From Rhodoferax sp. (GTDB lineage: Bacteria; Pseudomonadota; Gammaproteobacteria; Burkholderiales; Burkholderiaceae_C), in assembly GCA_013791765.1 (NCBI GenBank), contig VMTC01000009.1, forward strand, positions 1 through 53,783: 53,783 nt of DNA, given 5' to 3'. Of this stretch, positions 200 to 43,730 are shown piece by piece. Positions within the stretch are counted from its first letter, which is position 1; each line of letters opens with the position of its first letter. The translations under genes were made by a program, and so were the position numbers. The notes beneath the pieces are model-generated. The model was not told the origin of the DNA, did no database searches, and worked only from the letters and a program-made list of their open reading frames with translations.

Positions 200-202
200 A
201 AA

Positions 203-4242: not shown

Positions 4243-5547
4243 ATGAAAACACTGACAAATATTCTGATCAAAGGCGGCCGGGTCATGGATCCGGCCAGTG
4301 GTTTTGATGAAATAGTGGATTTAGCCCTCGCCAATGGGACGGTTCTAGCTATTAAAAATATAGCGTCTGATTTCCAGCCCGGTCAAACTGTGGATGCGAC
4401 CGGCTGCATCGTGATGCCCGGCTTGGTAGACCTGGCGGTGCGCCTGCGCGAGCCCGGTCATGAGCATGAAGGCATGCTGGAATCCGAAATGGCGGCGGCG
4501 ATGGCCGGCGGCGTCACCAGCCTGGTGTGTCTGCCTGACACCGACCCGGTGCTCGACGAGCCCGGCCTGGTCGAAATGCTGCGCTTTCGGGCCGAAAAGC
4601 TCAATCAGGCCCGGGTCTATCCGCTGGGTGCCCTGACGCGCAACCTGGCCGGTGAATCACTGTCCGAGATGCAGGAACTCACCGAGGCCGGTTGCGTCGC
4701 TTTCAGCCAGGGCGAAGTGCCACTGCCCAACACCCAGGTCATGCAACGCGCGTTTCTGTACGCCAGCACCTTTGGCTATTGCGTCTGGTTGCGCCCGCAG
4801 GATTTGTTTTTGGGTCAGGGTGTGGCTGCCAGTGGCCCATTGGCGACCCGCCTGGGACTGAGCGGGGTGCCGGTGGCGGCCGAAACCATTGCGCTGCACA
4901 CCATCTTTGAGCTGATGCGCGCCACCGGGGCCCGCGTGCACCTGTGCCGCCTCAGCAGCGCGGCGGGCGTGGCCCTGGTGCGCCAGGCAAAACTCGACGG
5001 CTTGGCTGTGAGTTGCGACATCAGCATCAATTCGCTGCATTTGACCGATGCCGACATCGGCTACTTTGACAGCCGGGCGCGCCTGAACCCGCCCTTGCGC
5101 CAGCAGCGCGACCGCGATGCCCTGAGCGCTGGTTTGCTTGACGGCACCATTGATGCGCTGGTGTCCGATCACACGCCGGTGGACGCGAACGCCAAGGCGC
5201 TGCCCTTTGCCGAAAGCGAGCCCGGTGCCACCGGCGTTGAGTTGCTGCTGAGCCTGGCGCTTAAATGGAGCCAGGACAGCGGTGTCAGTCTGGCACGCGC
5301 TCTGGCTGTGGTGACCGATGGTCCGGCTGCCGTCCTGGGCGCCTCGCTTGGCAAACGCCAAGCCAGCACCGGTCGCCTGCTGGCCGGTGGCGCGGCTGAC
5401 CTGTGCGTGTTTGACCCGGCAGCTGGCTGGACCGTGCAGGCTGATACCTTGCGCAGCCAGGGCAAGCACACGCCGTTCTCGGGCTACGAATTGCCGGGCA
5501 AGGTGCGTTGCACGATCATGGCAGGGCGAATCGCGTTCGGAAAATAA
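4243..5547 (+). CDS. pyrX: non-catalytic dihydroorotase homologue (PyrC'), ATCase partner
   Basis: A 434-residue amidohydrolase-fold protein, aligned by DPASGFDE near residue 20 and VMPGLVDLAVRLREPGHEHE near residue 65. In active dihydroorotases that segment carries the zinc-binding His-x-His; here it reads A-V-R. The downstream histidine positions are also degenerate (VWLRPQD, VHLCRLSS), while SDHTP keeps an aspartate. It is therefore very probably inactive and structural, as known for Pseudomonas PyrC', which is required for assembly of the ATCase dodecamer. It follows pyrB after one base. The start at 4243 is preferred over the in-frame ATG at 4231 inside pyrB. Residues 26-41 are encoded by a repeat copy. 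The plsC gene often found next is absent. Confidence 0.92.
   Translation: MKTLTNILIKGGRVMDPASGFDEIVDLALANGTVLAIKNIASDFQPGQTVDATGCIVMPGLVDLAVRLREPGHEHEGMLESEMAAAMAGGVTSLVCLPDTDPVLDEPGLVEMLRFRAEKLNQARVYPLGALTRNLAGESLSEMQELTEAGCVAFSQGEVPLPNTQVMQRAFLYASTFGYCVWLRPQDLFLGQGVAASGPLATRLGLSGVPVAAETIALHTIFELMRATGARVHLCRLSSAAGVALVRQAKLDGLAVSCDISINSLHLTDADIGYFDSRARLNPPLRQQRDRDALSAGLLDGTIDALVSDHTPVDANAKALPFAESEPGATGVELLLSLALKWSQDSGVSLARALAVVTDGPAAVLGASLGKRQASTGRLLAGGAADLCVFDPAAGWTVQADTLRSQGKHTPFSGYELPGKVRCTIMAGRIAFGK
4319..4364 (+). repeat. GCCC-N20-GCTA-N9-TAGC repeat, copy 2, inside pyrC'
   Basis: GCCC at 4324-4327, 20 bases, then the 17-base GCTA...TAGC block at 4348-4364. It lies inside the dead dihydroorotase gene in the sense orientation and encodes DLALANGTVLAIKNIA, read in the GCC-first frame. 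The reading frame is intact on both sides. Confidence 0.8.
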
Positions 5548-5678
5548 GGTAGTCCAGGGCTTGGGCGAGCGGCCAAACAAAGCGGCCCGGCAATGCGCCG
5601 CAATTGACGAACAGCAAGGTAATTGCGCCTCGGTCGATTGAAACTACGTGCCGTGTCACGTCATTTCAAGGGACTTTC

Positions 5679-7733
5679 ATGAGCCAGAACCTCTCCAGCA
5701 CCATTCGCACCGTTGCCCTGGTCGGCCACGGTGCTGCCGGCAAAACCACCCTGGCTGAGAGCCTGCTGGCAGCCAGCGGCGCCATCAAGAGCCGCGGCTC
5801 GGTTGAAAAAGGCAGCACCGTCTGCGATTTCGACCCGATTGAAAAAGAACTGGGCCACTCCCTGCAGTCGGCGCTGGTCAGCTTCAAGACCGGCGGCGCC
5901 CACGTTCACCTGATCGACACCCCGGGCTACCCCGACTTTGCCAGCCAGGCCATCAGCGCGCTGGCCGCCGTGGACACGGCCCTGGTGGTCATCAACGCGC
6001 AGACCGGCATAGAGCTCTCGAGCGAGCGCATGTTCACGCTGGCCGGTGAGCGCGGCCTGTGCCGCATGATCGTGGTGAACAAGATCGATGCTGACAACAT
6101 CGATCTGCTGGCCCTGGTGAACGACATCCGCGCGCGTTTTGGCAAGCAATGCCTGTTGCTGGAGCTGCCGCTGCACCATGGCCAGGACGTGGTCGAGCTG
6201 CTCGGCCACGCGGACGGCGAGAGCGACTTTGCCTCGGTGGCTGCTGCGCACCGCGACCTGATCGACCAGTTGATCGAAGAAGACGACAGCCTGCTGGCGC
6301 GCTACCTGGAAGATGGCCTGGAGCCCAGCGCGCAGGAACTGCATGCGCCGTTTGAGAGCGCGCTGCGCGCCGGCCACCTGATCCCGATCCTGTTTGTCTC
6401 GGCCAAGACCGGCGCGGGCGTGGCGCAACTGCTGGACGCGCTGGCCAAGCTGGCGCCGAGCCCGGCAGAGGGCAACCCGCCGCCGTTTTACCGGGATGAG
6501 CCGGGCAAGCCGCCCCAAGCCTTCTTGGCGCAGCCCGATGAGGAGCTGCCCGTGCTGGCACATGTATTCAAGGTCGTGGTCGACCCCTTCATCGGCAAGC
6601 TCGGTGTGTTTCGGGTGCACCAGGGCACGCTGCGCAAAGACGCGCAGCTGCTTGCAGGCTCGGCCAAGCACCCCTTTAAAGTGACCCACCTGTACCGCCT
6701 GCAGGGCAAGGACTATGTTGAAGTGCCAGCGCTGATCCCAGGCGACATCGGGGCGATTGCCAAGGTCGACGAGATCGAATTTGACTGCGTGCTGCATGAG
6801 TCGCACGAGCAGGACAGCATTCACCTCAAGGCCCTGCAGTTCCCGCAGCCGATGCAAGGGCTGGCGGTGCACCCCCGGCGCAAGGGCGACGAGCAGCGCC
6901 TGTTCGAGGTTCTGAACAAGCTGGCGCTGGAAGACCCCTGCTTCAAGATCGAGCGCCATGCCGGCACCCATGAGACCGTGATTCGCGGCCTGGGCGAGAT
7001 GCACCTGCGCACCAAGCTGCTGCGCATGCAGCAACAGTACAAGCTTGAGCTTGACACCAGCGCGCCGCAAATTGCCTACCGTGAGACCATCACCGCGCAG
7101 GCCGATGGCCATTGCCGCCACAAGAAGCAAAGCGGCGGTGCCGGCCAGTTTGGCGAGGTGATGCTGCGCGTGGAGCCGCTGGCGCGCGGGGCGGGCTTCG
7201 AATTTGCCGACCAGGTCAAGGGCGGCGCCATTCCGGGGGTGTTCATGGCGGCGGTTGAAAAAGGCGTGCGCCAGGCACTTGTGGAGGGCGCAGTGGCAGG
7301 TTTTGGGCTGGAGGACCTGCGCGTCACGGTGCTCGACGGCAAAACCCATGCCGTCGACGGCAAAGACATCGCCTTCACGACCGCCGGGCGCAAAGCCACG
7401 CTCGATGCGGTGCTCAAGGCCAGCCCGATCGTGCTCGAGCCCGTGGTCAATATCGAGGTACTGGCACCGCAGCCCAGCATTGGCGACCTCACCGGCGACC
7501 TCGCAGCCAGACGCGGCCATGTCACGAGCACGCAGCCGCGCTCCAACGGCCATGTGGCCATTGGCGGACAAATCCCGCTGGCCGAACTGGGCGACTACCA
7601 GGGCCGCTTGAAGTCACTCACTGCCGGCCAGGGTTCCTACAGCATCAGTTTTTCGCACTATGCGCCTGTGCCTGGCGCGACCCAGCAGCAACTCGCCAGC
7701 AAGTACCAGGCGCTCAGCCTGGGCGACGAGTAA
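5679..7733 (+). CDS. fusA2: elongation factor G-like GTPase (EF-G paralogue)
   Basis: A 684-residue translational GTPase related to EF-G. G1 is GHGAAGKTT (residues 16-24), the switch region STVCDFDPIEKELGHS matches EF-G, G3 is DTPGYPDF (79-86) and G4 NKID (133-136). Domain II, III, IV and V signatures follow (for example FVSAKTG, IRGLGEMHL, GGAGQFGEV). It stands alone, not in a str operon, and diverges from canonical FusA, so it is probably the second EF-G type found in many proteobacteria; its exact step is unknown. The start at 5679 follows an AAGGGA site; the in-frame ATG at 5604 has none. Confidence 0.9.
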   Translation: MSQNLSSTIRTVALVGHGAAGKTTLAESLLAASGAIKSRGSVEKGSTVCDFDPIEKELGHSLQSALVSFKTGGAHVHLIDTPGYPDFASQAISALAAVDTALVVINAQTGIELSSERMFTLAGERGLCRMIVVNKIDADNIDLLALVNDIRARFGKQCLLLELPLHHGQDVVELLGHADGESDFASVAAAHRDLIDQLIEEDDSLLARYLEDGLEPSAQELHAPFESALRAGHLIPILFVSAKTGAGVAQLLDALAKLAPSPAEGNPPPFYRDEPGKPPQAFLAQPDEELPVLAHVFKVVVDPFIGKLGVFRVHQGTLRKDAQLLAGSAKHPFKVTHLYRLQGKDYVEVPALIPGDIGAIAKVDEIEFDCVLHESHEQDSIHLKALQFPQPMQGLAVHPRRKGDEQRLFEVLNKLALEDPCFKIERHAGTHETVIRGLGEMHLRTKLLRMQQQYKLELDTSAPQIAYRETITAQADGHCRHKKQSGGAGQFGEVMLRVEPLARGAGFEFADQVKGGAIPGVFMAAVEKGVRQALVEGAVAGFGLEDLRVTVLDGKTHAVDGKDIAFTTAGRKATLDAVLKASPIVLEPVVNIEVLAPQPSIGDLTGDLAARRGHVTSTQPRSNGHVAIGGQIPLAELGDYQGRLKSLTAGQGSYSISFSHYAPVPGATQQQLASKYQALSLGDE

Positions 7734-7753
7734 GCGCCGCAAGCGCAAAAGCG

Positions 7754-7774
7754 CGTCAAAGCATGGCTTTGACG
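7754..7774. terminator. hairpin between convergent genes
   Basis: A perfect 9-bp stem, CGTCAAAGC / GCTTTGACG, with a 3-base loop sits between the end of fusA2 and the convergent end of the crystallin-repeat gene. It has no clear T run on either side, so its termination role is uncertain. Confidence 0.4.
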
Positions 7775-7801
7775 GGCTTTGAAGCAGCTGTTGACGCGTG
7801 C

Positions 7802-9232
7802 TTACTTGCGCGGCTCACCCTGCGCGTTGACGGTCACGGTCTGACCGGGGGGGGTCGTCATCTGAACGCGATGGTCCTGACCCCGGAAGTTGTAGGTCAC
7901 GTCCCAGTATTGCGGTTTCTGGTTGGGGACATTTTCGCAACGGCGCACGTCTTCGGCTGCGCCCTGTTGGCCGTTGACCTTGGCGCCAAGCGCTGCGCCG
8001 GCGATGACCCCGCCGACGGTGGCGAGGTCTTTACCACTGCCCCCGCCAACCTGATGCCCCAAGATGCCGCCAAGCAAGGCGCCAGCAATCGCGCCCGGCA
8101 CGTTGTTGCCTTGCGCGACTTGACCGGGCTCAACCCAGCAACGCTGCTCAGGCGTACCCATCACGGCCCGCACCGAGGTCACGTTGGCTTCAAACAGGCG
8201 CTCGTCGCGTTGCGGGCGGAAATCGGGGCCCGGTACTGGTGCGGCAATGAGTGCGGGTGCATAGCGACGGTCATCGATGCGTTCATTGCGGTCCAGCATG
8301 CGCACCGACGACACGCGGTCGTTCAAGCCCATGGCCCGCAGAGACGGATAAGTACCTTGACGCAAGACCACGCACTGCCCGCGGAACTGGACGTCGTCGC
8401 AGACCTCCCAGCGCTCGCCCACTACCACCACGGACGAGGCACGGTCATTGAAGCCAAAGCGGTTGAAGTTGTTGATTTCCTGGGCCGTCGAGAAGGACCG
8501 GCCGTTCAGACCTTCGTTTTCGTAAAAAGTGATCTGCCCGGTCGCTGGCGCCGTCACCGCTGCGAATGCTGGCGCATAGCGGCGCTCATCAATGCGCTCA
8601 TTGCGGTCCAGCACGCGCACAGACGAGACCCGGTTGTTCAAGCCCATGGCCCGCAGTGACGGATAAGTGCCCTGGCGCAAGACCACGCACTGCCCGCGAA
8701 AGCGGGCATCTTCACAAACTTCCCAGCGCTCTCCCACGACCACGGCTGACGAGGCGCTGTCATTGAAGCCAAAGCGGTTGAAGTTGTTGATCTGCCTGCC
8801 TGTGGTGAATGAGCGGCCGGACATACCCTCGTCTTCATAAAAGGTGATCTGCGGGGCTGCTGGCGCAATCACAGGAGCCGGTGCCGGCGCATAGCGCCGG
8901 TCATCAACGCGGGTGTTGCGGCTCACGGCGCGCACCGAGGTGATGCGGTTGCTCAGGCCCATGGCGTTGAGCGAGGGGTACTTGCCCGGGCGCAGCACCA
9001 CACAGCGACCATTGAAGCGTTGGTCTTCGCACGCCTCCCAGCGCTCACCGACGACCACCACCGACGAGGCACTGTCGTTAAAGCCCCGGCGTGCCAGGTT
9101 GTCGACCGTTCTGGAGGTCGTGAAGGACTCGCCTTGATAGCCTTCCTGCTCAAAGAGAGTGACCTGGGCGGACGCGTGCGCGGCCAAGGCCACGGCGGTC
9201 ACTGCCAATGTGTTTTTGAGTAATGCGTTCAT
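7802..9232 (-). CDS. secreted beta/gamma-crystallin repeat protein with glycine-zipper C-terminus
   Basis: A 476-residue exported protein. The signal peptide is MNALLKNTLAVTAVALAAH, with a likely cut after ASA (about residue 22). Three tandem beta/gamma-crystallin units follow (about 24-117, 129-222, 234-327), each with a start like ITFYEDEGMSGRSF, then FNDSASSVVVVGERWEVCED and FRGQCVVLRQGTYPSL. Units 2 and 3 are nearly identical. Residues 378-418 form a glycine-zipper 2TM-like segment (GAIAGALLGGILGHQVGGG) typical of outer-membrane-associated proteins. The start at 9232 gives the signal peptide; the longer frame adds 20 unlikely residues. Crystallin motifs often bind calcium, but that is not shown here. 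It is probably a stress or envelope protein. Confidence 0.85.
   Translation of the reverse strand: MNALLKNTLAVTAVALAAHASAQVTLFEQEGYQGESFTTSRTVDNLARRGFNDSASSVVVVGERWEACEDQRFNGRCVVLRPGKYPSLNAMGLSNRITSVRAVSRNTRVDDRRYAPAPAPVIAPAAPQITFYEDEGMSGRSFTTGRQINNFNRFGFNDSASSAVVVGERWEVCEDARFRGQCVVLRQGTYPSLRAMGLNNRVSSVRVLDRNERIDERRYAPAFAAVTAPATGQITFYENEGLNGRSFSTAQEINNFNRFGFNDRASSVVVVGERWEVCDDVQFRGQCVVLRQGTYPSLRAMGLNDRVSSVRMLDRNERIDDRRYAPALIAAPVPGPDFRPQRDERLFEANVTSVRAVMGTPEQRCWVEPGQVAQGNNVPGAIAGALLGGILGHQVGGGSGKDLATVGGVIAGAALGAKVNGQQGAAEDVRRCENVPNQKPQYWDVTYNFRGQDHRVQMTTPPGQTVTVNAQGEPRK
8252..8533 (-). repeat. crystallin-unit direct repeat 3
   Basis: DNA encoding the third crystallin unit (residues about 234-327). 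It is highly similar to the unit at 8567-8848, at a spacing of 315 bases (105 codons), which points to recent duplication or gene conversion within the gene. Confidence 0.8.
8567..8848 (-). repeat. crystallin-unit direct repeat 2
   Basis: DNA encoding the second crystallin unit (residues about 129-222). It shares long identical stretches with unit 3, including the segments for NNFNRFGFND and RGQCVVLRQGTYPSLRAMGL. Confidence 0.8.
8882..9163 (-). repeat. crystallin-unit direct repeat 1 (diverged)
   Basis: DNA encoding the first crystallin unit (residues about 24-117). It is clearly homologous to units 2 and 3 but more diverged (LARRGFNDSASS, GRCVVLRPGKYPSLNAMGL), so it is the older copy. Confidence 0.7.
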
Positions 9233-9677
9233 TCGTTGTTCCTGTAGAAAGTTAAGGTGGGCTGCCGGTCCCCACCGACGTGCTACTGGCATCCATCAAT
9301 CGGGTAGCACAGCGGCGACTATCGCCGCGCAACTCATTGGCGTCTGTGCGCCAGCAAACATAAGTCAAAGGAATTCATGATTGCCAGCAATTTGCTACAC
9401 ATTTCATAGCTGTGTAACCTTATTACATGCGGGCTAGAGGCCATTTATTCATATAAAACAAGGGAATAGTTCGATCACAATCAAATAGGCCCAGTGGCAC
9501 TTGGCGGATGGCCCTGTCAGCACGCCAGCAGCGGCAGAACCGATAATCAAAGGCCCGAGACGCACTGTCGCCTCTTCATGCAAGCCGGAACTCTTTGATG
9601 TCAACTTCTCCCCTACCCTTGTTTCTGCCGCCCGCGCCTGCGGCCATGCTACCTGCCGGGTGCGCCGGAGTCTGCAC
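9233..9677. other. divergent intergenic region, 445 bases
   Basis: This gap lies between the start of the crystallin-repeat gene and the start of trhP and must hold both promoters. It contains one copy of the short repeat (9394-9442). An in-frame extension of trhP back to 9501 is open, but its translation does not resemble the family. I see no other gene. Confidence 0.6.
9394..9442 (-). repeat. GCCC-N20-GCTA-N9-TAGC repeat, copy 3
   Basis: Intergenic copy on the minus strand: the 17-base block is at 9394-9410 and the complement of GCCC at 9431-9434, exactly 20 bases away, followed by the conserved TAGAGGCC end. Confidence 0.85.
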
Positions 9678-13459: not shown

Positions 13460-13483
13460 TTTTGCATTGTATTTTGGATTAAA

Positions 13484-13534
13484 TTAGCCTGCAGCCCTCG
13501 TATCCATTGCGTAATAAGCTATAAAATAAGTAGC
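13484..13534 (+). repeat. GCCC-N20-GCTA-N9-TAGC repeat, copy 4
   Basis: GCCC at 13494-13497 and GCTA...TAGC at 13518-13534, 20 bases apart, with the lead-in TTAGCCTGCA. It fills most of the divergent gap between the ferredoxin and the DHH-family gene, where the promoters must be. Confidence 0.85.
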
Positions 13535-13557
13535 ATTATAAATAGAATCGTCTCTCC

Positions 13558-16958: not shown

Positions 16959-16995
16959 AGTGGCTTCTCCTTTTTGCCCTGAAATTTATATAAAA

Positions 16996-17046
16996 TCAGC
17001 CTCTAGACCACGTCAAATAAGCGTGAGCAGCTATTAAATTAATTCA
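16996..17046 (+). repeat. GCCC-N20-GCTA repeat, copy 5, inside the cbb operon
   Basis: GACC instead of GCCC at 17006-17009, 20 bases, then GCTATTAAATT from 17030. The TAGC end is lost. It sits between cbbF and cbbP, and its right end overlaps the cbbF stop codon (17039-17041), so it may affect mRNA processing or expression within the operon. Confidence 0.75.
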
Positions 17047-18133
17047 TAAACAGGCTGCGCTCGGCAAACAGCGGGTTGCTCAGCTCAGCCGTTTCGGGCT
17101 CGGCGTGGTAGCGCTCAATGCGCTCGACCTCATGCCGGGAGCCAAACACCAGGCCAATGCGCTGGTGCAGCGAGCTCGGTTGCACGTCGAGCATGGGCAC
17201 TTCACCGGTTGAGGCGCGTCCGCCCGCCTGTTCAATGATCATGCCGATTGGGTTGGCCTCGTACAGCAGGCGCAGGCGCCCCGGCTTGGCCGTATCCTTG
17301 TTGTCACGCGGGTACATGAAGACGCCCCCACGCATCAGGATGCGGTGTGCCTCCGCCACCAGGCTGGCAATCCAGCGCATATTAAAGTCTTTGCCGCGCG
17401 GCCCGGTCTGGCCCGCCAGGCATTCGTCCACATAGCGCTTCACGGGTGCCTGCCAAAAGCGGGCGTTGGAGGCGTTGATGGCGAACTCCTGGGTTTCCTT
17501 TGGTATCTGCATCTTGGGGTGCGTCAGCATGAATTCGCCAAGATTCGGGTCGAGCGTGAAACCGTTGACGCCATCGCCCACGGTGAGCACCAGCAGCGTG
17601 GTCGGGCCATAGACCGCATAACCCGCAGCCACTTGGCTGTGACCGGGCTGCAAGAAGTCAGCCTCGGTCAGGTCGCGGCCGCTGTCCACCGCGTCTTTGG
17701 GCGCCCGCAACACCGAAAAGATGCTGCCCACGCACACATTGACGTCGATGTTGCTGGAGCCATCCAGCGGATCAAACACCAGCAAGTACTTGCCGCGCGG
17801 GTATTGCTGTGGAATCTGATACGGCAGCTCCATCTCCTCAGAGGCCATGCCGGCCAGGTTGCCGGCCCATTCGGTGCGACGGATGAAAACCTCGTTGCTC
17901 AGTACATCGAGCTTCTTCTGGGTTTCGCCCTGCACGTTGACGCTGCCACCGGTCTCGGCCGCGTGGTTGCCCATGGCGCCGCCCAACTCGCCCAAGGCCA
18001 CGGCGCGGGCGATGGCTTTGCACGCGAGCGCCACGTCCAGAATCAGCGCGTTGAAGTCGCCACTGGCGCCAGGGAAACGGCGCCGCTCCTCGATCAGAAA
18101 TTGGGTCAGCGTGGAGCGGTGGGTCAAAGGCAT
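17039..18133 (-). CDS. cbbF: fructose-1,6-bisphosphatase, class I
   Basis: A 364-residue class I fructose-1,6-bisphosphatase, which makes fructose 6-phosphate for the Calvin cycle and gluconeogenesis. The metal and phosphate signature is [20 protein letters not shown], followed by GGVFMYPRD and the C-terminal catalytic segment. The start at 18133 (MPLTHRSTL) gives the usual N-terminus; the open frame continues to 18199, but that part overlaps cbbY and is encoded by a repeat. It is the second gene of the operon, with a 49-base gap to cbbY. Confidence 0.95.
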
Positions 18134-27572: not shown

Positions 27573-27587
27573 TATTTATAATAAATC

Positions 27588-27636
27588 GAGCTCTAGCCCA
27601 CGTCCTTAATGCGTATGCAGCTATTAAAATTGAATC
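27588..27636 (+). repeat. GCCC-N20-GCTA repeat, copy 7, covering the hisC start codon
   Basis: GCCC at 27596-27599, 20 bases, then GCTATTAAAATT from 27620; the TAGC end is lost. The hisC ATG (27609) lies inside the N20 part, so the first residues MRMQLLKLN are encoded by repeat sequence. Confidence 0.8.
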
Positions 27637-28730
27637 AAAATTCTGACTTTAACGCTTCGTTTTACAGCCCGGTTGTGCCTCGGCTCGTACCTTATGTGCC
27701 GGGAGAGCAACCCAAGATTGACGGTTTGGTCAAGCTCAATACCAACGAAAACCCGTACCCGCCCTCACCCCGTGTGCTGGCCGCCATCCATCTGGCAGCG
27801 CAGCAGGGTTTGCAGCTTTACCCTGATCCTGAAGCCACGGCATTACGCCAAACCATCGCGGCGCACCATCGCTTGGCGCCGCAGCAAGTCTTCTTGGGCA
27901 ATGGCTCCGACGAGGTGCTGGCCCATGCCTTTTTCGCCTTCTTTCAGCACGGTTGCCCGCTCTTGATACCCGACATCAGCTACAGCTTCTACCAGGTGTA
28001 CTGCCGGCTCTACGGCATCCCGGTTGAAACCGTGCCTTTGACCGAAGCCCTGTGCCTTGACGTCGCGGCTTACGCCCGTAGCGACGGTGCAGCTGTGGCT
28101 GGCGTCGTCATCGCTAACCCGAATGCACCCACGGGTGTCGGCCTGCCGCTGCAAAAGGTGGAACAACTGCTGCGTCTGCACCCGCAGCGCGTGGTGCTCG
28201 TGGATGAAGCGTATGTGGACTTCGGCGGCGACAGCGCAATCGGCTTGATTGCGCAGTATCCCAATCTGCTGGTGGTTCACACCTTGTCCAAATCGCGCTC
28301 ACTCGCCGGTCTACGGATCGGTTTTGCCTGCGGCCAGGCGCACTTGATTGAGGCGCTGGAACGTGTCAAGAACAGCTTCAATTCCTATCCGCTGGACCGA
28401 CTGGCCATTGCGGGCGGGGTCGCGGCTTTTGAGGATCAAGCCTGGTTCGAGCAGACCCGCCGCGCCGTGATGAGCAGCCGCGAAGGGCTGGTGCTGGCGC
28501 TGGAAGATTTGGGCTTTCAGGTGCTGCCCTCACAAGCCAATTTTGTGTTCGCACGCCATCCCCAGCACGATGCACAGGCCATCGCTGCTGCCCTGCGCTC
28601 GCGCGGCGTGTTGGTGCGGCACTTCCAGCTGGCGCGCATCGAGCAGTACTTGCGCATCAGCATCGGCACGCCAGCGCAATGCGATGCTTTGCTGCAGGCG
28701 CTCGCCTCAGTACTTGCGACGCTGGCTTAA
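27609..28730 (+). CDS. hisC: histidinol-phosphate aminotransferase
   Basis: A 373-residue fold-type I aminotransferase of the HisC family, which converts imidazole acetol phosphate to histidinol phosphate with pyridoxal phosphate. [56 protein letters not shown] and the PLP-lysine segment [16 protein letters not shown] are present. The N-terminus ([15 protein letters not shown]) is unlike other HisC and is partly encoded by a repeat; the conserved part starts at [18 protein letters not shown]. An ATG at 27615 is an alternative start. It overlaps the convergent rsgA by 24 bases. Confidence 0.92.
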
Positions 28731-29627
28731 CTCCGCATACAAGTCGCTGTAAATTTTATAGCGGTTCGCGCTTATCCCGTCCGGGCTACCGTTGGGTTTG
28801 ACGGCGGCCATGACGCCGCAACCGGGTTCATGCAGGTGACTGCAGTTATAAAACTTGCAGTTGGCCACATGCGGTTTGAAGTCCGGCATATAGGCCGCCA
28901 ACTGCGCCGGGTCGATGTGATTCAAGCCAAACTCCTGGAAGCCCGGTGAGTCAATCAAGGCCGTTTGTTTTTCCGCGTCAACCCAATACCAGGTGGTGCT
29001 GGTGGTGGTGTGCTTGCCGGAGTTGAGGGCTTGTGAAATCTCGCCGGTTTGCGCCAGGGCGCCCGGTGCCAGCAGGTTGATCAAAGTGCTTTTGCCCGCG
29101 CCCGACGGCCCCAGCACCAGCGTTGTTTTGCCGTGCAGTAGCTTGAGCAGTTCGGCGTGATCAACATCACCTGATTGTTTGAGCGACAGCGGCAGCACGC
29201 CGTAATGCATTTGCCGGTAAGGCCGCAGCCACGCCCAGGCGCGCGCGAAGGGCTCGACCAGATCACTTTTGTTGAGGGCGATGATGGGTGTGATGTGCTC
29301 CGCCTCCGCCGCGATCAGCGCGCGCGAGAGCTGGCTGCTGGAGAACTCGGGTTCCGCCGCGATCAGGATCAGTATCTGGTCCAGATTGGCCGCAAATGAC
29401 TTGGTGCGAACCTCATCCTGACGGTAAAACACGTTGCGACGTTCTTCGATCTTTTCAATTGTGCCCTCGTCCTGCGAGGCCTGCCACAGGACGCGGTCTC
29501 CCACCAGCCCCTGGCTTTTCTTGCCGCGCGAGTGGCAAATCAGTCGCTTTCCTTCCGGTGTCTCGACCAGAAAGTGGCGGCCATAGTTGGCGACGATCAG
29601 GCCGCGGTCGAGGGTGGCCCGTTCCAT
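28707..29627 (-). CDS. rsgA: small ribosomal subunit biogenesis GTPase RsgA
   Basis: A 306-residue circularly permuted GTPase that acts in 30S maturation. After an OB-fold domain ([18 protein letters not shown]), G4 is [10 protein letters not shown]1 [14 protein letters not shown] and G3 [10 protein letters not shown]. The zinc motif is [16 protein letters not shown] (C-x5-C-x-H-x5-C). The start at 29627 gives the usual length; the longer frame runs through phhB. It overlaps the end of hisC. Its C-terminal region overlaps a candidate repeat copy. phhB lies directly upstream on the same strand. Confidence 0.95.
28746..28790 (-). repeat. GCCC-N20-GCTA repeat, copy 8, in the rsgA C-terminus
   Basis: The complement of GCCC at 28783-28786 is exactly 20 bases from the 17-base GCTA...AGC block (28746-28762), and ATAAGCG is at the same place as in copy 5. 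It encodes [15 protein letters not shown] in a different frame from the other coding copies. RsgA C-termini are naturally similar here, so part of the match may be convergence. Confidence 0.5.
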
Positions 29628-29652: not shown

Positions 29653-29988
29653 TCATGCGAACAGGGCCTCAACCCGCGCCGCGCAATCAAAGTCGCTTCG
29701 CGAGAGACCGCCGATATCATGGGTATTGAAACGCACCGCACAACGGTTGAAACGCACCGACAAATCGGGGTGGTGATCTTGCCGATGCGCGATGAAGGCC
29801 AGCGCATTCACGAAGGCCATGGTCTCGTGGTAATTCGCAAAGCTGAAAGTCTTTTCAATGGCCACGTCGGCCCCATCGCCGGAGAGTTGCCAGCCTTCCA
29901 GTTTTGCCAGATTTGTGACTATTTCTGTAGCGCTAAACGCAGGTCTAGCGGGGGCTAGCGCCTCATTTGTCTTCAGAATAGTGTTCAT
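29653..29988 (-). CDS. phhB: pterin-4a-carbinolamine dehydratase
   Basis: A 111-residue dehydratase that regenerates tetrahydropterin for aromatic amino acid hydroxylases. The core has LAKLEGWQLSGDGADVAIEK, FVNALAFIAHRQDHHPDLSV (catalytic H-x-H-H-P-D) and VRFNTHDIGGLSRSDF. The extra N-terminus (MNTILKTNEALAPARP and on to about residue 23) is partly encoded by a repeat copy. No hydroxylase gene is nearby. It lies 25 bases upstream of rsgA and downstream of the M48 protease gene on the same strand. Confidence 0.92.
   Translation of the reverse strand: MNTILKTNEALAPARPAFSATEIVTNLAKLEGWQLSGDGADVAIEKTFSFANYHETMAFVNALAFIAHRQDHHPDLSVRFNRCAVRFNTHDIGGLSRSDFDCAARVEALFA
29915..29963 (-). repeat. GCCC-N20-GCTA repeat, copy 9, in phhB
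   Basis: The complement of GCCC at 29952-29955 and the 17-base block at 29915-29931, 20 bases apart. It encodes EALAPARPAFSATEIV in the GCC-first frame, in the sense direction, just before the conserved dehydratase core. Confidence 0.75.
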
Positions 29989-36334: not shown

Positions 36335-37300
36335 TTAGTAGTGCAAAACCTGGGGATTGTACCAATGCAGCGTCGCCGCTCGGCGCTCGCAATAGCCAGT
36401 GCCTACCTTGATCCGAATCTGGTGGCTTCGCGTGGTGCAAGCGGCAATCTGGTCCAGCAGCTCCGTCATTTGCGCCGTGCTGGGCACGGTTTGAAACGCG
36501 GTGTTGAGCCAATGGCGCAACACATTGGCTTGTCGTGGGCGGCTCAAGGCTTGCAGCAACGCAATCACGGGCGGGGTACCCATGTGAGCCAGGTCTTGCG
36601 CTGCCACTTCAAGCAACAGCACTTGCGCCTGTGCGGCGTGAGCGGCACTGCGCGCAAAGGTCTCGCGAAATTGCTCAAAGGTGGAGTCCAACGCGGGCAA
36701 TAAACGCGCACGAATGCGGTTGCGGGTGAACTGCTCATCGCCATTGGTCGGATCCTCAATCCAGGCCACACCACGAGCGACCAACCAGCGCCGGATTTCT
36801 GACGCCGCCACGCGTAAGAGCGGGCGATGGTAGGTGAGCCCTGCGCGCTGCCACATTGCCGGCATGGCGCTCATACCGGGCAAGCCAGCACCTCGGCTCA
36901 GCGCAAGCAACAGCGTTTCCACCTGATCGTCCGCGTGCTGCGCAATTGCTATATCTTTAGTAGCTTTAAGCGCATATTCCACGTGGGATACAGCCTCAAA
37001 AGCTTTGTATCTGGCGCGGCGGGCTGCATCTTCCGGACTCTGGCCCGAGGCATGACGCGCGTCGACGCGCTTGACCACCAGCGGCAAGCCCAGCCGCGCG
37101 CAAACCGTCTGGCAATGCCGTTCGAAGTCATCTCCCGCCGCCTGTAAACCGTGGTGAACATGGATGGCGTGCACCTGACCCGGCCATTTTTCGGTGCAAG
37201 CCAACAACAAAGCGGTGGAGTCTGCCCCGCCACTGAAGCCCACCGCCAGCGGCAGGCTCGGCTGGAAGAGAGCCATGGCGTCCGGCAGGGTGACAGTCAA
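36335..37300 (-). CDS. tilS: tRNA(Ile)-lysidine synthase
   Basis: A 321-residue TilS, which converts C34 of the AUA-reading tRNA-Ile to lysidine. The ATP-PPase P-loop is VGFSGGADSTALLLA near residue 20; HVHHGLQAAGDDF and QHADDQVETLLLALSRGAG follow. The N-terminal domain and the middle domain with RNRIRARLLPAL are present; the C-terminal domain is short. Residues 101-118 (FEAVSHVEYALKATKDIA), between RARYKA and IAQHADDQ, are encoded by a repeat copy. It lies between accA and lysC, close to lysC. Confidence 0.93.
   Translation of the reverse strand: MTVTLPDAMALFQPSLPLAVGFSGGADSTALLLACTEKWPGQVHAIHVHHGLQAAGDDFERHCQTVCARLGLPLVVKRVDARHASGQSPEDAARRARYKAFEAVSHVEYALKATKDIAIAQHADDQVETLLLALSRGAGLPGMSAMPAMWQRAGLTYHRPLLRVAASEIRRWLVARGVAWIEDPTNGDEQFTRNRIRARLLPALDSTFEQFRETFARSAAHAAQAQVLLLEVAAQDLAHMGTPPVIALLQALSRPRQANVLRHWLNTAFQTVPSTAQMTELLDQIAACTTRSHQIRIKVGTGYCERRAATLHWYNPQVLHY
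36948..36996 (-). repeat. CCC-N20-GCTA-N9-TAGC repeat, copy 10, in tilS
   Basis: The 17-base GCTATATCTTTAGTAGC (plus strand) at 36948-36964 is followed 20 bases later by GGGA (36985), one base off the usual GGGC. In the sense direction it encodes EAVSHVEYALKATKDIA in the GCC-first frame, inside the ATP-PPase domain. Confidence 0.75.
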
Positions 37301-38327: not shown

Positions 38328-38344
38328 AAATGACTCCTATGCGG

Positions 38345-38391
38345 TTGGGGACAGCGCTTGTTCGCTTGACGCAATGGTGGTCTGCCCCGCA
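38345..38391. repeat. GGGGACAG...TCTGCCCC element, copy 1
   Basis: A 47-base unit starting TTGGGGACAGCGCTTGTTCG and ending TCTGCCCCGCA. Its ends are inverted (GGGGACAG / CTGCCCC). A second, 85-90% similar copy follows after a 58-base period, in the accA-alkA gap. Confidence 0.85.
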
Positions 38392-38402
38392 TTTTTGATC
38401 AG

Positions 38403-38449
38403 TTGGGGACAGAGCTTGTTCGCTTCGCGTAACGGCGGTCTGTCCCGCA
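38403..38449. repeat. GGGGACAG...TCTGTCCC element, copy 2
   Basis: The second unit, with perfect inverted ends GGGACAG / CTGTCCC. Paired palindromic units of this kind look like REP/BIME elements; no REP-associated transposase gene is in the window. Confidence 0.85.
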
Positions 38450-38462
38450 AGTTTTCATGTCT

Positions 38463-39113
38463 TCAGTATTCCACCGGCAGTGGATCCAGCGAGCGCCAAA
38501 TATACCAAGTTGCCACGCTGCAATAAGGTGCCCAGGCGGCGGCGACTTCGCGCGCATCACTGCGACTGACCGTATCACCAGAAAAATAGTTCTTGCTGAT
38601 GCCATTGAGCAGCCCGACATCGTCCAGCGGCAGCACATTGGGGCGCATCAGGTGAAAGATCAAGAACATCTCCGCTGTCCAACGACCAATGCCACGGATG
38701 GCAATCAACTCGGCAATGATCGCCTCATCCTCGATGGCTTCCCAGGTCTCGACGTGCACCGCACCACTGTCAAAATGCAGCGCCAGGTCAACCAGGTATT
38801 CCACCTTGCGCACACTCAAGCCCGCCGCACGCATGTCATCGACCTTGAGCCTGAGCACGTTGGCAGCCGTCATTTGCTTCGGTAGCAGCGCAAAGCGATT
38901 CCACACGGTCTGAGCCGCCTTAACCGAAATCTGCTGGCCCACCACGCTGCGAGCCAGCGTCACAAAAGCATCCCCCCGGCTTTGCAGACAGGCGTCGCCA
39001 AACAACGGGATGAGCCGCTTCATCACCCGGTCTTTTTTCATCAGGTGCTTGCGCGCGTCGCTCCAATAGACGGGAGATGCCACTTCTGACGCTATTGTTT
39101 GAGTAGCTACCAT
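38463..39113 (-). CDS. alkA: DNA-3-methyladenine glycosylase (AlkA-type HhH-GPD)
   Basis: A 216-residue base-excision glycosylase of the HhH-GPD superfamily that removes alkylated bases. FVTLARSVVGQQISVKAAQ starts the domain, the helix-hairpin-helix is IAIRGIGRWTAEMFLIFHL, and the catalytic aspartate is in PLDDVGLLNG. It lacks an N-terminal AlkA domain, so it belongs to the short form. Its N-terminus (MVATQTIASEVAS) is encoded by a repeat; start codons at 39113 (ATG) and 39125 (GTG) are both inside that copy. It lies between accA and cysS on the minus strand. Confidence 0.9.
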   Translation of the reverse strand: MVATQTIASEVASPVYWSDARKHLMKKDRVMKRLIPLFGDACLQSRGDAFVTLARSVVGQQISVKAAQTVWNRFALLPKQMTAANVLRLKVDDMRAAGLSVRKVEYLVDLALHFDSGAVHVETWEAIEDEAIIAELIAIRGIGRWTAEMFLIFHLMRPNVLPLDDVGLLNGISKNYFSGDTVSRSDAREVAAAWAPYCSVATWYIWRSLDPLPVEY

Positions 39114-39139
39114 GGCACTATCCACGAGGGCTAGATGCC
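39091..39139 (-). repeat. GCCC-N20-GCTA-N9-TAGC repeat, copy 11, at the alkA start
   Basis: The 17-base block at 39091-39107 and the complement of GCCC at 39128-39131, 20 bases apart. It overlaps the 5' end of alkA in the sense direction. The GCC-first frame reads LALVDSAMVATQTIA, so the alkA start codon and first residues come from the repeat. Confidence 0.85.
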
Positions 39140-39158
39140 AAAATTGCGCTTAATAAAA

Positions 39159-40538
39159 TCATGCGGCAACTTCCCAGGATGTGCCGCTAGCCGTATCCTT
39201 TAGCACAATACCCAGGGCCAACAAGTGCTGGCGAATGCGATCCGCTTCGGCGAAGTCTTTGGCGGCCTTGGCCGCCGCGCGCTGCGCAATCAAAGTCGCA
39301 ATCGACCCCTCGTCGAGCGTGGCACCGGCCTGAAGAAATGCTTTCGGATCGCCCTGCAGCAGGCCCAGGCAAGCGCCCAAGGCTTTGAGCAGGCCCGCCA
39401 ATTGCGCAGACCGGGTCTTGTTGACTTCTGAAGCCAACTCAAACAGCACCGCTACCGCCTCGGGAGTACCAAAATCTTCGTCCATCGCAGCCTTGAAGCG
39501 CGCGGCAAAGGGCTCGCTCCAGTCAATGGCAAGCAGCGCTTCGGGCGCTACCAGATCGAGCGCCGTGTAGAGGCGTTTCAGAGAGTTGCGGGCATCGTCC
39601 AGATGCGCGTCGCTGTGGTTCAGAGCACTGCGGTAGTGGGCTCGGATGATGAAGAAGCGTGTGGTCTCGGCGTCATAACGGGCCAGAATGTCGCGGATCG
39701 TGAAGAAATTTCCCAGGCTCTTGGACATCTTCTCGTTGTCGCGCGTGACAAAGCCGTTGTGCATCCAAATGCTCGCCAATGGTTTGCCGGTGGCACCCTC
39801 GCTCTGCGCAATTTCATTCTCATGGTGCGGAAACTGAAGATCAGCGCCGCCGCCGTGAATGTCCACGGTCTCACCCAGCATCTCGCCACACATGGCCGAG
39901 CATTCGATGTGCCAGCCAGGGCGGCCCTGGCCGTAAATGCTGTCCCATTTCGCATCCGGCGGTTCGTTCGCTTTGGCGGTTTTCCAGAGCACAAAATCAA
40001 GCGGATCATCCTTGCCGTCCGCCACTGCCACCCTCTCACCGGCGCGCAGCTCATCGAGTGACTTGCCGCTGAGCTTGCCGTAGCCCGGGAATTTTCGTAC
40101 CGCGTAATTGACGTCCCCATTGCCCGCTTGGTAGGCCAGACCTTTTTGTTCAAGTCGCCCAATCAGATTCAACATGTGCGGCACGAAGTCGGTGGCCCGG
40201 GGTTCATGGGTAGGGCGCTCAATGCCCAGGGCATCGGCATCCTGATGCAAGGCATCCACCATGCGATCGGTCAGTGCCCGAATGGTTTCGCCATTCTCCA
40301 GCGCACGTTTAATGATTTTGTCGTCAATATCGGTCACGTTGCGCACATAGGTCACGCACAAGCCGCTGGCCTTGAGCCAGCGTTGCACCACGTCAAACGC
40401 CACCATGGCGCGCGCATGGCCCAGATGGCACAGGTCATAAACTGTCATGCCGCAGACGTACATGCGCACATGTCCGGGGTCAATCGGGATCAAAGGTTCC
40501 AATGCACGCGACAGCGTGTTGTAGATGCGCAAACTCAT
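39159..40538 (-). CDS. cysS: cysteine-tRNA ligase
   Basis: A 459-residue class I cysteinyl-tRNA synthetase. [19 protein letters not shown] holds a zinc cysteine and the HIGH-like [15 protein letters not shown] and [11 protein letters not shown] hold further zinc ligands; [10 protein letters not shown] is the KMSKS loop. The anticodon-binding C-terminal domain ends at the stop. The start at 40538 (MSLRIYNT) is the usual one; an in-frame ATG at 40562 adds 8 residues. It heads the minus-strand block cysS-alkA-accA-tilS-lysC. Confidence 0.97.
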
Positions 40539-40725
40539 GGGTATTTCAAACGACGCCGTCAAAGTAGTCGACTAGATGGTGGCATTGGCAAAGACTGCAA
40601 ATGGGTGGGTAATTACGAAGGCGCTGAAAAGCACCCCCTAAGCTACAATTCTTAGCAGTATATAGCCCGATCCGCTGGCCAGCCGCGATTGCCGGGCTCT
40701 CACCCTGTAGGAATCAAAAAGCCCC

Positions 40726-41739
40726 ATGAAGCTCGCCCGCACCCCTTTTTTCACCACACTTCGCCTGATGGCAGTCGCGCTTGCCTGCACCACGTCCATC
40801 GCGTACGCAGATGACTATGGCGACGTTAACCAACTGCTGCACGCGGGCAAGCTAGGCGAAGCCATGGTCAAGGCCGAGAGTTACCTGGCAACCAAGCCCG
40901 CCGACCCGCAGATGCGCTTCCTCAAGGGTGTCATCCAACGCAATCTGGGCAAACAGGCTGAGGCGATCGCAACGTTCACCAAGCTCACTGAAGACTATCC
41001 CGAGCTGCCCGAACCCTACAACAACCTGGCCGTACTCTACGCGGGTCAAAACCAGTTTGACAAGGCTCGGGCTGCGCTGGAAATGGCCATCCGCACCAAT
41101 CCCAGCTACGCCACCGCGCATGAAAACTTGGGCGACGTCTACGCACGCCTAGCCAGCCAGGCCTACAACAAGGCGCTGCAACTCGATGGCGCCAATCCGG
41201 CCGTACCGCCCAAATTAGCCCTGATTCGGGAGTTATTTGGCCCCAACAACAAGGGTCAGCACCCCACCACTGCGGCAGCGGTCGCCAAACCAGCAACACC
41301 AGCACCAACCGCCCCGGCGGCTGTTGTGTCCGCAACCCCATTAGCCACCCCCGCCCCGGTTGCAACTGCCAAGCCAGCCGCCAGCGACAGCTCAGCAAAG
41401 GAAGCCAAAGAAGTGGAAGACGCAGTGCAGGCTTGGGCCAGAGCCTGGGCCGCCAAGGACATGACTGCCTACCTGGGTGCTTATGGCAGAGAGTTCGACC
41501 CAGCGGGAAAACAGTCACGCAACGCCTGGGAGGCCGAACGCCGCAACCGCATCGTCGGCAAAAACACCATCAGCGTCAAACTGGACAACGTCAGCGTCAC
41601 GGTCAATGATTCACAAGCTGTGGCCAAATTCCGTCAGGACTACCGCTCGGGAACGCTTGCTGTGTCGAGCCGCAAAACGCTCGACTTGGTCAAGACTGGC
41701 AACCGGTGGTTGATCGTCAAGGAAAGCACTGGAAACTAA
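40726..41739 (+). CDS. secreted TPR protein with NTF2-like C-terminal domain
   Basis: A 337-residue periplasmic protein. The signal peptide is MKLARTPFFTTLRLMAVALA and the cut follows YADD or AYA near residue 27. Three to four TPR-like helical repeats (residues about 30-150, for example PYNNLAVLYAGQNQFDKARA) are followed by an Ala/Pro linker (165-225). The C-terminal domain (about 230-337), with AVQAWARAWAAKDMTAYLGAY and an ending in NRWLIVKESTGN, has an NTF2/SnoaL-like fold and resembles the C-terminus of the next gene product. It is co-oriented and probably co-transcribed with the L,D-transpeptidase. It may act in cell-wall work. Confidence 0.75.
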   Translation: MKLARTPFFTTLRLMAVALACTTSIAYADDYGDVNQLLHAGKLGEAMVKAESYLATKPADPQMRFLKGVIQRNLGKQAEAIATFTKLTEDYPELPEPYNNLAVLYAGQNQFDKARAALEMAIRTNPSYATAHENLGDVYARLASQAYNKALQLDGANPAVPPKLALIRELFGPNNKGQHPTTAAAVAKPATPAPTAPAAVVSATPLATPAPVATAKPAASDSSAKEAKEVEDAVQAWARAWAAKDMTAYLGAYGREFDPAGKQSRNAWEAERRNRIVGKNTISVKLDNVSVTVNDSQAVAKFRQDYRSGTLAVSSRKTLDLVKTGNRWLIVKESTGN

Positions 41740-41805
41740 TGACCGCCAGCCGATCAAAGCGAGCTTGCCTGGCTCAGCGGCTAGCGTGTAGCGCCTGATG
41801 CGATC

Positions 41806-43134
41806 ATGAAGCGACATTTTATTTTTCTATTTTTCCCGGCCCTCGTGGGTCTGGCGTTGAGCGCAGGCGCGGCCTCTCATCAAAAGCCTGCGTCCAAAGC
41901 CACGCCTGCCGCGAGCGCCAGGCAGCAAGCAGCCGCCAAGACCAAGACTGCCCCGCGCGTCAAGAGCAAGACAGCAGCCAAGGCCCAGCCTGTGCGCAGC
42001 CTTAAGCAGCCGCCATCGGCCAACGGTGACCTGGCGGAAGCACGTCTGCTGACCATCTACCAACTTATGGCCACGGCGCAGAGCTCTGAAGCCCTGACCC
42101 AAGCCGAGCAACTGGTCAAGGACCACCCCCACTTTCAATTGGCCCAACTGGTCTACGGCGACCTGCTGGCCGCACGCACGCGAGCTGTCCGTGTGGTGGG
42201 CGACGTGCCGGAACCCCTGCGCACAGCCGCTGCCCCAGTGCTGAGTGAACTCCGCGATGAGTCGCAACTGCGCTTGAAGGCCTTGCGTGAGCGCCCGCCT
42301 GCGGGGGCGCTTCCTTCGCAATTCCTGGCGCTGTCAGCGCGCAACAAGCACGCCATTGCCATTGATGCGTCCCGCTCGCGCCTGTACTTGCTGGAAAACC
42401 GGCCCACCGGGCTGACTCTGATTGCTGACTATTACGTCTCTATCGGAAAGTCCGGGCTGTCTAAAAACGCCGAGGGTGACTTGCGAACCCCGCTGGGCGT
42501 GTACTTCATCACCAGCAACCTCGACCCCAAGTCGCTCAAAGACTTCTACGGCTCAGGCGCACTGCCCATCAATTACCCCAACGTGCTCGACAGCGCGCGC
42601 GGCAAAACAGGCGGCGGCATTTGGCTGCATGGCACGCCGCCCAGCCAGTTTTCACGCGCGCCTCTGGCCACCGACGGTTGCGTCGTGTTGGCCAACCCTG
42701 ACTTGATGGCGCTGATCCGCACGGTCGAAGTCCGCACCACGCCAGTCGTGATCTCGCAAAGCCTGAAATGGGTCACGCCCAACACGGCCCGCTCTGAGAG
42801 CAAACCTTTTGAAGCCGCCTTGAGCGCCTGGCAAAAGGCCAAATCCAGCGGCAATATGAACCAGGTGCTTAGTTTTTACAGCCCCAACTTCAACAGCAAT
42901 GGCAAGACATTGACGCAGTGGACACCGTCTCTGCGCAGCGAGTTGAACCTAGTGCAGGGACGCGCCATTCAACTCAAGGACCTGTCCATGCTGCGCTGGA
43001 CTGACACCGCCGACACCATGGTGGTCACTTTTGGCGAAGTGACCGACGGCGCCCGCACCGGGCCGACCAAACGCCAATACTGGGTGCGTCAAGGCGCCAA
43101 TTGGAAAATATTTTACGAAGGAGTTATTGGATGA
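41806..43134 (+). CDS. L,D-transpeptidase (YkuD domain) with NTF2-like tail
   Basis: A 442-residue periplasmic protein. Signal peptide MKRHFIFLFFPALVGLALSA, then a basic Ala/Lys-rich stretch (residues 25-70), a helical region with short TPR-like parts, and a YkuD domain from about residue 180 (AIAIDASRSRLYLLENR, GDLRTPLGVYF, then IWLHGTP). The catalytic Cys lies in ATDGCVVLAN. Such enzymes cross-link peptidoglycan or anchor lipoproteins. The C-terminal part (about 335-442), with AFEAALSAWQKAKSSGNMNQ and an ending in ANWKIFYEGVIG, is NTF2-like and related to that of the preceding gene. Its stop overlaps the start of ppiA. Confidence 0.88.
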   Translation: MKRHFIFLFFPALVGLALSAGAASHQKPASKATPAASARQQAAAKTKTAPRVKSKTAAKAQPVRSLKQPPSANGDLAEARLLTIYQLMATAQSSEALTQAEQLVKDHPHFQLAQLVYGDLLAARTRAVRVVGDVPEPLRTAAAPVLSELRDESQLRLKALRERPPAGALPSQFLALSARNKHAIAIDASRSRLYLLENRPTGLTLIADYYVSIGKSGLSKNAEGDLRTPLGVYFITSNLDPKSLKDFYGSGALPINYPNVLDSARGKTGGGIWLHGTPPSQFSRAPLATDGCVVLANPDLMALIRTVEVRTTPVVISQSLKWVTPNTARSESKPFEAALSAWQKAKSSGNMNQVLSFYSPNFNSNGKTLTQWTPSLRSELNLVQGRAIQLKDLSMLRWTDTADTMVVTFGEVTDGARTGPTKRQYWVRQGANWKIFYEGVIG

Positions 43135-43730
43135 AATTTACACTATTTACGGCCTTAGCCCCCGCAATTATTGCGGTTACAGCTACATTTTCAATAGCGT
43201 CAGAAGCCTGGGCGCAAGTGCCAGCCCAAGTGAAATTCGCCACATCAGCGGGCGACTTCGTCGTCGAGGTCTATCCCGACAAGGCGCCCAAAACGGTGGC
43301 TAATTTCTTGCAGTACGTGCAGGACAAGCACTACGACGGCACCATCTTCCACCGCGTCATCCCCAACTTCATGATCCAGGGCGGTGGCTTTGATGCCAAA
43401 TATGTGCAAAAACCGACCCGGGCGCCGGTGGCGCACGAAGGCCGGGAAGCACTTGCCAAAGGCGGGCCAAGGAACGTCACGGGAACACTCGCAATGGCCC
43501 GCACCGCTGACCCGCAATCGGCCACGGCCCAGTTCTTTATCAACGTCAAAGACAACGCCTTTCTGGATCCCAGCGAGCGCGATTTTGGCTACACCGTTTT
43601 CGGCAAAGTCACCAGCGGCATGGAGGTGATCCAAAAAATAAAGGCTGTGCCCACCGGCCCAGCTGGCCCCTTTGGCTCAGACGCCCCTAAAACTCCGATT
43701 CTTATCAACTCTGCAACCCTGGTGAAGTAA
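43131..43730 (+). CDS. ppiA: periplasmic cyclophilin-type peptidyl-prolyl isomerase
   Basis: A 199-residue cyclophilin with a signal peptide (MKFTLFTALAPAIIAVTATF, cut after AWA at about residue 28), so it is exported to the periplasm. The cyclophilin core has [38 protein letters not shown] and [20 protein letters not shown]. Start at 43131 overlaps the L,D-transpeptidase stop (ATGA). Residues 7-24, the hydrophobic core of the signal peptide, are encoded by a repeat copy. It is followed by ppiB, a cytoplasmic paralogue. Confidence 0.92.
   Translation: MKFTLFTALAPAIIAVTATFSIASEAWAQVPAQVKFATSAGDFVVEVYPDKAPKTVANFLQYVQDKHYDGTIFHRVIPNFMIQGGGFDAKYVQKPTRAPVAHEGREALAKGGPRNVTGTLAMARTADPQSATAQFFINVKDNAFLDPSERDFGYTVFGKVTSGMEVIQKIKAVPTGPAGPFGSDAPKTPILINSATLVK
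43151..43198 (+). repeat. GCCC-N20-GCTA-N9-TAGC repeat, copy 12, encoding the ppiA signal peptide core
   Basis: GCCC at 43158-43161 and GCTA...TAGC at 43182-43198, 20 bases apart. In the GCC-first frame it encodes ALAPAIIAVTATFSIA, the whole hydrophobic segment of the ppiA signal peptide. It also shares ALAPA with the phhB copy. Confidence 0.85.

Follow-up and report, generated by a model that had tools for sequence, protein, structure and literature searches.

A dispersed ~64-bp motif of Rhodoferax and related genera as a possible DNA-level recognition sequence kept in place within and between genes

Several kinds of dispersed repeat known from bacteria come close to a ~64-bp motif that recurs along a 53,783-nucleotide stretch of a Rhodoferax sp. 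draft genome (contig VMTC01000009.1, positions 1 to 53,783; this whole stretch is called the window below). The uptake signal sequences of Pasteurellaceae and the DNA uptake sequences of Neisseria are motifs of 10-12 bp (PMC2346458). They share with the present motif hundreds to thousands of copies, lying in both orientations in and between genes, and one orientation that is commoner in reading frames; the motif differs in its length, in its information content of 52 bits and in being about ten times denser between genes. Rickettsia palindromic elements are described in PMC10969869 as ~150-bp insertions fused in frame, and there, as here, the repeat stands inside unrelated protein genes with one frame preferred, but the present motif is only ~64 bp long, keeps native length at most compared sites and has common antisense copies. 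Repetitive extragenic palindromes (REP) and REP doublets forming hairpins (REPINs), with their REP-associated tyrosine transposases (RAYT), resemble it in the hundreds of mostly extragenic copies and the RAYT conserved across the family (PMC8266576 and PMC8049555). Unlike them, the motif is neither palindromic, with no REP-type hairpin, nor furnished with an invariant GTAG-type tetranucleotide, RAYT also occurs without the repeat, and the genic sites are mostly in place with their length unchanged.

Two further descriptions concern Betaproteobacteria. Among motif pairs, PMC5217627 lists ATAGCT(N)22CAAAAG in Polaromonas naphthalenivorans (125 copies, 101 intergenic and 18 in genes) and GCTTAT(N)5AAGCG in Acidovorax ebreus, where few lie in divergent spacers, and credits Rhodoferax ferrireducens with the most motif pairs of all genomes surveyed. 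These pairs and the present motif belong to related organisms and are alike dispersed, mostly intergenic, near genes and uncharacterised; the exact P. naphthalenivorans and A. ebreus patterns occur 0 and 0 times in 985 kb of this genome and 1 and 0 times in ten loci of relatives. The beta-proteobacterial repeat element (BRE) is too dispersed in Betaproteobacteria, Rhodoferax and Polaromonas included, with some copies within coding sequence; being ~90 bp long, 69% GC in Bordetella and sometimes tandem (PMC3110155), it would differ from the ~64-bp motif. A description of the motif itself was not found in the papers searched, where nothing came closer than these systems, and none of six names of this group and relatives occurs in PMC3733652. 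The reading developed below, which we give an even chance of being correct, is that the motif would be an ancient and long DNA-level recognition sequence of one bacterial family, kept in place and working most like an uptake signal.

In aligned copies the ~52 bits of the motif are distributed over conserved columns across the whole span, in the order AT-rich block, GCCTCTAGCCCnCGT, free stretch, TGCGT, AGCTAT, AATT, ATAG, with AT-rich blocks separating the conserved GC blocks. A first profile, built from 12 window copies, gave at least 150 matches in the 4.17-Mb draft, of which the window is contig 50; the training set mixed genic and intergenic copies. With a refined profile, 454 kb held 69 matches at E<=0.001 against none in the reversed sequence, and 73 against 2 at E<=1, a control by which the recurrence is real and chance is ruled out. 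A sample of 985,061 bp, drawn from long contigs with part of contig C93 added for its RAYT gene, contains 137 copies at E<=0.01, about one per 7,000 bp, which scales to ~580 genome-wide. As with uptake signals, then, there are hundreds of copies on both strands, and no strand is preferred (72 plus, 65 minus). Eighty copies are intergenic, 51 lie wholly within a called gene and 6 cross a gene end, giving 0.62 copies per kb between genes and 0.06 per kb in them. Genes were called by codon score and their starts are uncertain, owing to which the phhB, alkA and ppiA copies of the window were counted as intergenic in one tabulation.

The copies stay where they are. Two relatives (G080 and G081) have contigs in synteny with the window, at 75-93% identity by block, and 13 of the window's 14 motif matches at E<=0.01 map to them, 12 with a same-place match in both (39 matches in all). 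Within the syntenic block no relative has a copy without a window counterpart, and presence or absence does not differ at 12 of the 13 mapped sites, the remaining one being a weak match at 28744 that has no hit in G081. The spacing of flanking anchors is near-equal at most sites; it differs by 20-40 bp around 49767, where the indels fall outside the motif. At seven intergenic sites compared pairwise in three species, 426 of 462 high-information columns (92%), 362 of 462 middle columns and 308 of 462 low-information columns (67%) are identical, and unrelated copies share 80%, 49% and 31%. Core columns are thus kept and free columns drift. Conversion of copies as cassettes was considered and rejected as the rule, since low-information columns are 67% identical in orthologous and 31% in unrelated copies, which argues against wholesale replacement; one such replacement could have occurred at site 9407 (47% at low-information columns).

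Within genes the choice of codons spells out the motif more closely than the amino acids demand, at native positions of the proteins. In each of the 51 genic copies the actual DNA outscores every one of 400 synonymous recodings, the means of which have a median of -9 bits for sense and -12 bits for antisense copies; random genome pieces have a median of -83 bits. The same holds in other genera for four genes, in which none of 200 recodings reaches the score of the actual DNA at 48 of 50 motif sites (z between 2.8 and 7.7); the motif-bearing genera were picked by score, which favours high z, and the motif-free genera, with z from -1.2 to 3.0, serve as the yardstick. We infer that the motif is upheld at the DNA level over distances between genera.

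The reading frame follows a rule of its own. Among the 51 genic copies 29 are sense and 22 antisense (p=0.40); 27 of the 29 sense copies are read in the frame giving LALVxxAxxAIKxIA and 2 in another, and the antisense copies are spread over three frames (14, 5 and 3). The preliminary description, which took the repeat to be read as protein, always in sense and mostly in one frame, was right on the frame: in the window the pyrC', phhB, tilS, alkA and ppiA copies are co-oriented with their genes and give L-A-L/P-V/A-x-x-A-x-x-A-I/T-K-x-I-A or something close, and the preference extends to the genome sample. Constant sense orientation is true of the window but does not survive in the 985-kb sample. 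The repeat is indeed translated, nearly always in one sense frame, with the qualification that the LALVDSA part of the alkA copy is probably untranslated because the likely start codon, as judged from relatives, lies inside the copy. Avoidance of stops, proposed as what sets the frame, does not account for it alone. Of 74 intergenic copies the used frame is open in 22, the third sense frame in only 2 and the second in 17, yet none of the 29 genic sense copies uses the second; an open frame left empty in genes indicates that peptide content matters as well as stops. The one-frame rule would arise because LALVxxAxxAIKxIA, rich in Ala, Leu, Val and Ile, would suit many helices, strands and signal peptides, whereas the other sense frames would meet stops or yield peptides rich in Ser, Cys and Arg.

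Compared across genera, the motif at most sites does not have the look of an insert. The pyrC segment has 58 aa in all 29 other genera, only 2 of which carry the motif above 10 bits, and the lpxB segment has 38 aa in all 29. There the motif exceeds 4 bits in 12 genera, always in the same base register, and the other 17 score -27 bits or less; each of the ten genera above 10 bits is represented by a genome that has motif matches (8 to at least 87), and the 19 at or below 10 bits comprise 15 genomes without matches and four with 1, 1, 4 and 13. The trmH site (28 of 29 loci scored) is 24 aa long in 12 of the 13 motif-bearing genera and in 12 of the 15 motif-free ones, and 30 aa in this genome. 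At the antisense site of acetoacetyl-CoA synthetase, where 13 of 29 genera exceed 10 bits, the median is 53 aa with the motif and 52 aa in the 16 without. The ppiA junction measures 96 bp in seven and 93 bp in two of nine motif-bearing loci, and 96, 96, 96, 102, 105 and 105 bp in six motif-poor ones. Alignments are gap-free at the motif with solved LpxB (5w8s), with the carboxylase beta subunits 9tps and 3u9r, and for PrmB with two HemK proteins, one residue being gapped just after it. Uptake motifs are reported to evolve in place at orthologous positions, a defining mark of their class, and such sites, within tolerated codons, are what is found here, with cysS-alkA, dapE and prmB as exceptions.

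These exceptions bear on a different account, that of a mobile insertion in frame, modelled in the preliminary description on the Rickettsia elements. The cysS-alkA junction (31 of 37 loci scored) is 124-173 bp long in 12 motif-bearing loci, and the 19 motif-free ones fall at 69-85 bp (13 loci) and 119-151 bp (6 loci); the ~50 extra bp with the motif look like an insertion. The dapE loop varies from 36 to 59 aa, motif-bearing prmB (26 of 29 scored) is ~3 aa longer on average, and tilS (43 of 49 scored) is ~2 aa longer than Limnohabitans-type orthologues, again insertion-like. Against distant solved homologues, the acetoacetyl-CoA synthetase is 9 residues longer than 4wd1 and a GMC oxidoreductase ~18 residues longer than 9lq0, both with antisense copies, and a carboxylase alpha subunit with a sense copy is 7 residues longer than 3u9s and near-equal to 8j4z. 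Such differences weigh against a sequence that arises within native codons, and together with the single preferred sense frame they speak for an insertion. Insertion perhaps occurred at a minority of sites (cysS-alkA, perhaps dapE, prmB, tilS and some antisense sites). As a general account it is very improbable: it has to contend with lengths that are equal or nearly so whether the motif is there or not at pyrC, lpxB, trmH, ppiA and acetoacetyl-CoA synthetase, where no in-frame peptide is added, with 22 antisense copies beside 29 sense ones, and with the 12 better-scoring mapped sites, none of which is empty in either relative. The narrower proposal that antisense copies are insertions fits two copies when set against distant solved homologues and fails for acetoacetyl-CoA synthetase across genera. 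The earlier remark that flanking domains have about normal length is borne out. The parallel with Rickettsia elements is not supported; most compared sites keep their native length and antisense copies are common. The two outcomes that had been named in advance as speaking against insertion are largely those found: antisense copies are almost as frequent as sense ones, and at pyrC, lpxB, trmH, ppiA and acetoacetyl-CoA synthetase genera free of the repeat have equal or near-equal length and similar residues.

Across the family, matches at E<=1e-6 occur in 19 of 60 genera, this one included; across the order they occur in 1 of 60 genomes, namely this one. At least 150 matches are present in each of G080, G081, G082 and G084 (Polaromonas), the genomes behind several of the loci compared, and none in Limnohabitans G085. 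A Rhodoferax genome of 1.8 Mb (G083, locus L073) has only 7; its tilS keeps a decayed but recognisable motif (10.6 bits) and its cysS-alkA junction is still long (119 bp), a natural case of loss. On a three-gene tree the motif-bearing genera are scattered, so that the motif is either old with many losses or was gained repeatedly. GC content was rejected as the cause of its presence (Spearman -0.24, p=0.20, 29 genera). An exact 35-base pattern of the motif was also met in four stretches (L306, L307, L308 and L309) from three viral contigs, possibly host flanks of proviruses.

A link to a mobile system is a RAYT gene of 235 aa (PF01797; L236:2937-3644 on contig C93 of this genome, G000), one of its two Y1 proteins. 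Motif copies of the same orientation flank it on both sides here as well as in G080 and G081, a point that counts against a plain recognition sequence; of 792 sampled genes just six, including RAYT, are bracketed by copies in this way, and in G082, G051 and G055 RAYT has a copy at its 3' side. The motif could be a REP-like population of non-autonomous elements copied by the family's conserved RAYT (a Y1 transposase), by now mostly old and kept in place. Its mostly extragenic location (80 of 137 copies) would agree with that, and REPIN populations are described as lasting millions of years alongside RAYTs that are single-copy and passed on vertically (PMC8049555). We nonetheless regard this origin as fairly unlikely. 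The motif lacks a conserved palindrome, 111 copies show no covariation, the folding z of intergenic copies is near that of random genome pieces, and the consensus has no invariant GTAG. Genomes with few copies or none (G023, G064, G036, G038, G085 and G083) have RAYT too, in motif-bearing G022, G062 and G084 it stands without a flanking copy, and the motif-rich G060, at 74% completeness, has no Y1 match. Proteins with a Y1 transposase domain occur in 15 of 16 genomes searched, several in some. Copying, moreover, does not predict sites of the same register and length in lpxB, trmH and pyrC.

The placement of the copies raises two other possibilities. Divergent spacers are underused (3 of 79 against 102 of 497, p=1e-4), and spacing between copies is slightly more even than Poisson (variance/mean 0.72, p=0.02), both of which also count in favour of a recognition sequence. 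Together with the occurrence in both orientations and the long footprint of AT-rich blocks between conserved GC blocks, this would suit a chromosome-organising site, bound by a nucleoid protein or a wrapping enzyme such as gyrase and kept by plain selection; most of the traces expected of an uptake signal would be expected of a nucleoid-organising site too. We judge it decidedly unlikely, 52 bits lying above the expected need of such sites; no candidate protein was found, and none was looked for. Of the 54 copies in co-directional spacers, 37 are no more than 48 bp away from the 3' end of the upstream gene, as a terminator, an mRNA stability hairpin or an attenuator might. Such an element at the RNA level is barely conceivable: these copies show no clear orientation preference (31 in the same direction as the genes, 23 opposite), mutual information over 111 copies and named helices yielded no covarying base pair, and the intergenic copies show no clear folding excess (mean z -0.38/-0.63 against -0.31/-0.37 in random genome pieces). 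RNA structure was set aside as an explanation.

For the reading as a recognition sequence, some cell component would read the double-stranded motif, sites would arise and persist through point mutation plus selection or biased recombination, and the mode of working would be most like that of DNA uptake signal sequences, uptake being its least certain step. Apart from the length differences and the RAYT flanks given above, several observations weigh against it. Simple arithmetic asks for roughly 14 bits to mark 580 sites, far fewer than the 52 present. The ~64 bp are far more than the 10-12 bp of the uptake motifs in PMC2346458. No reader protein has been identified for the motif. Plain codon identity among motif-bearing genera gives a mixed picture: for 4 of 5 genes it is higher at the site than elsewhere in the gene without being outstanding, and at the dapE site it is lower. 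Lastly, no genome match at E<=1e-6 is seen for four genomes whose trmH site exceeds 10 bits, nor for one genome each with such a dapE and such an acetoacetyl-CoA synthetase site.

In the window, six of the copies discussed above lie in or beside genes. The dihydroorotase-like pyrC' of the amidohydrolase family (4243..5547, plus strand; Pfam PF07969/PF01979) contains one at 4301..4366 (DLALANGTVLAIKNIA, plus strand). On the minus strand, phhB (pterin-4a-carbinolamine dehydratase, 29653..29988, PF01329 from residue 18) has a profile match at its N-terminus (29913..29978), and tilS (tRNA-Ile lysidine synthetase, 36335..37300, PF01171 and PF09179) has one at 36946..37011; by TilS the nearest named relative is, at 90%, an assembly under the title Gammaproteobacteria bacterium, and Rhodoferax assemblies come next at 83% and 78%. 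The alkA-like HhH-GPD glycosylase, first called at 38463..39125 (minus, PF00730), probably starts within the copy at 39089..39154 (minus), a profile match in the cysS-alkA junction that, on comparison with the relatives' junctions, crosses the probable start codon. The cyclophilin gene ppiA (43131..43730, plus, PF00160), read with a start at 43131 chosen by us, has its N-terminal signal-peptide-like segment encoded by the copy at 43135..43200 (plus, profile match). The weak motif-like match at 28744..28809 (minus, E=9e-3, in another frame and matched in G080 only) lies near the C-terminus of a gene that we take to be rsgA-like.

The remaining copies stand between genes, with a same-place match in both relatives unless stated otherwise. 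They lie at 136..201 (plus, E=1e-11), directly 3' of the stop codon of the gene that runs into the window; 9392..9457 (minus, E=2e-9); 13471..13536 (plus, E=5e-12); 16983..17048 (plus, E=7e-13), a place that could not be mapped to the relatives' contigs; 27573..27638 (plus, E=1e-13), in the spacer preceding a gene that is, judging from its reading frame, presumably hisC-like; 49767..49832 (plus, E=1e-8), where the length of the flanking spacer differs; 51233..51298 (minus, E=2e-4), a divergent copy in a spacer; and 53298..53363 (minus, E=1e-9). Other repeats are present as well: three tandem repeats of ~300 nt at a spacing of 315 nt (8249-9178) inside a minus-strand ORF at 7802-9292, an imperfect direct repeat of 53 nt with 83% identity (38344-38454) in the spacer that separates an accA-like gene from alkA, and a 62-nt stretch common to ppiA and the next ORF (43587-43648 and 44103-44164) at 73% identity, consistent with tandem gene duplication.

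What the motif may mean for the family can be put only tentatively, and we lean towards doubting it in this full form: one betaproteobacterial family would have an uncharacterised DNA signal of ~64 bp, spread over the genome and longer than any uptake-type motif known to us. Kept at homologous codons in the core genes of different genera, it would shape a signal peptide, a TilS loop and other segments, and would decay at many sites together where its reader was lost. The case also carries a caution: a repeat may be translated in frame in unrelated proteins without having been inserted there. If the proposal is true, selection or drive acting at the DNA level on a 64-bp signal constrains the amino acids and codons of core enzymes throughout the family, and the patchy losses would be natural knock-outs for finding the protein that reads it.

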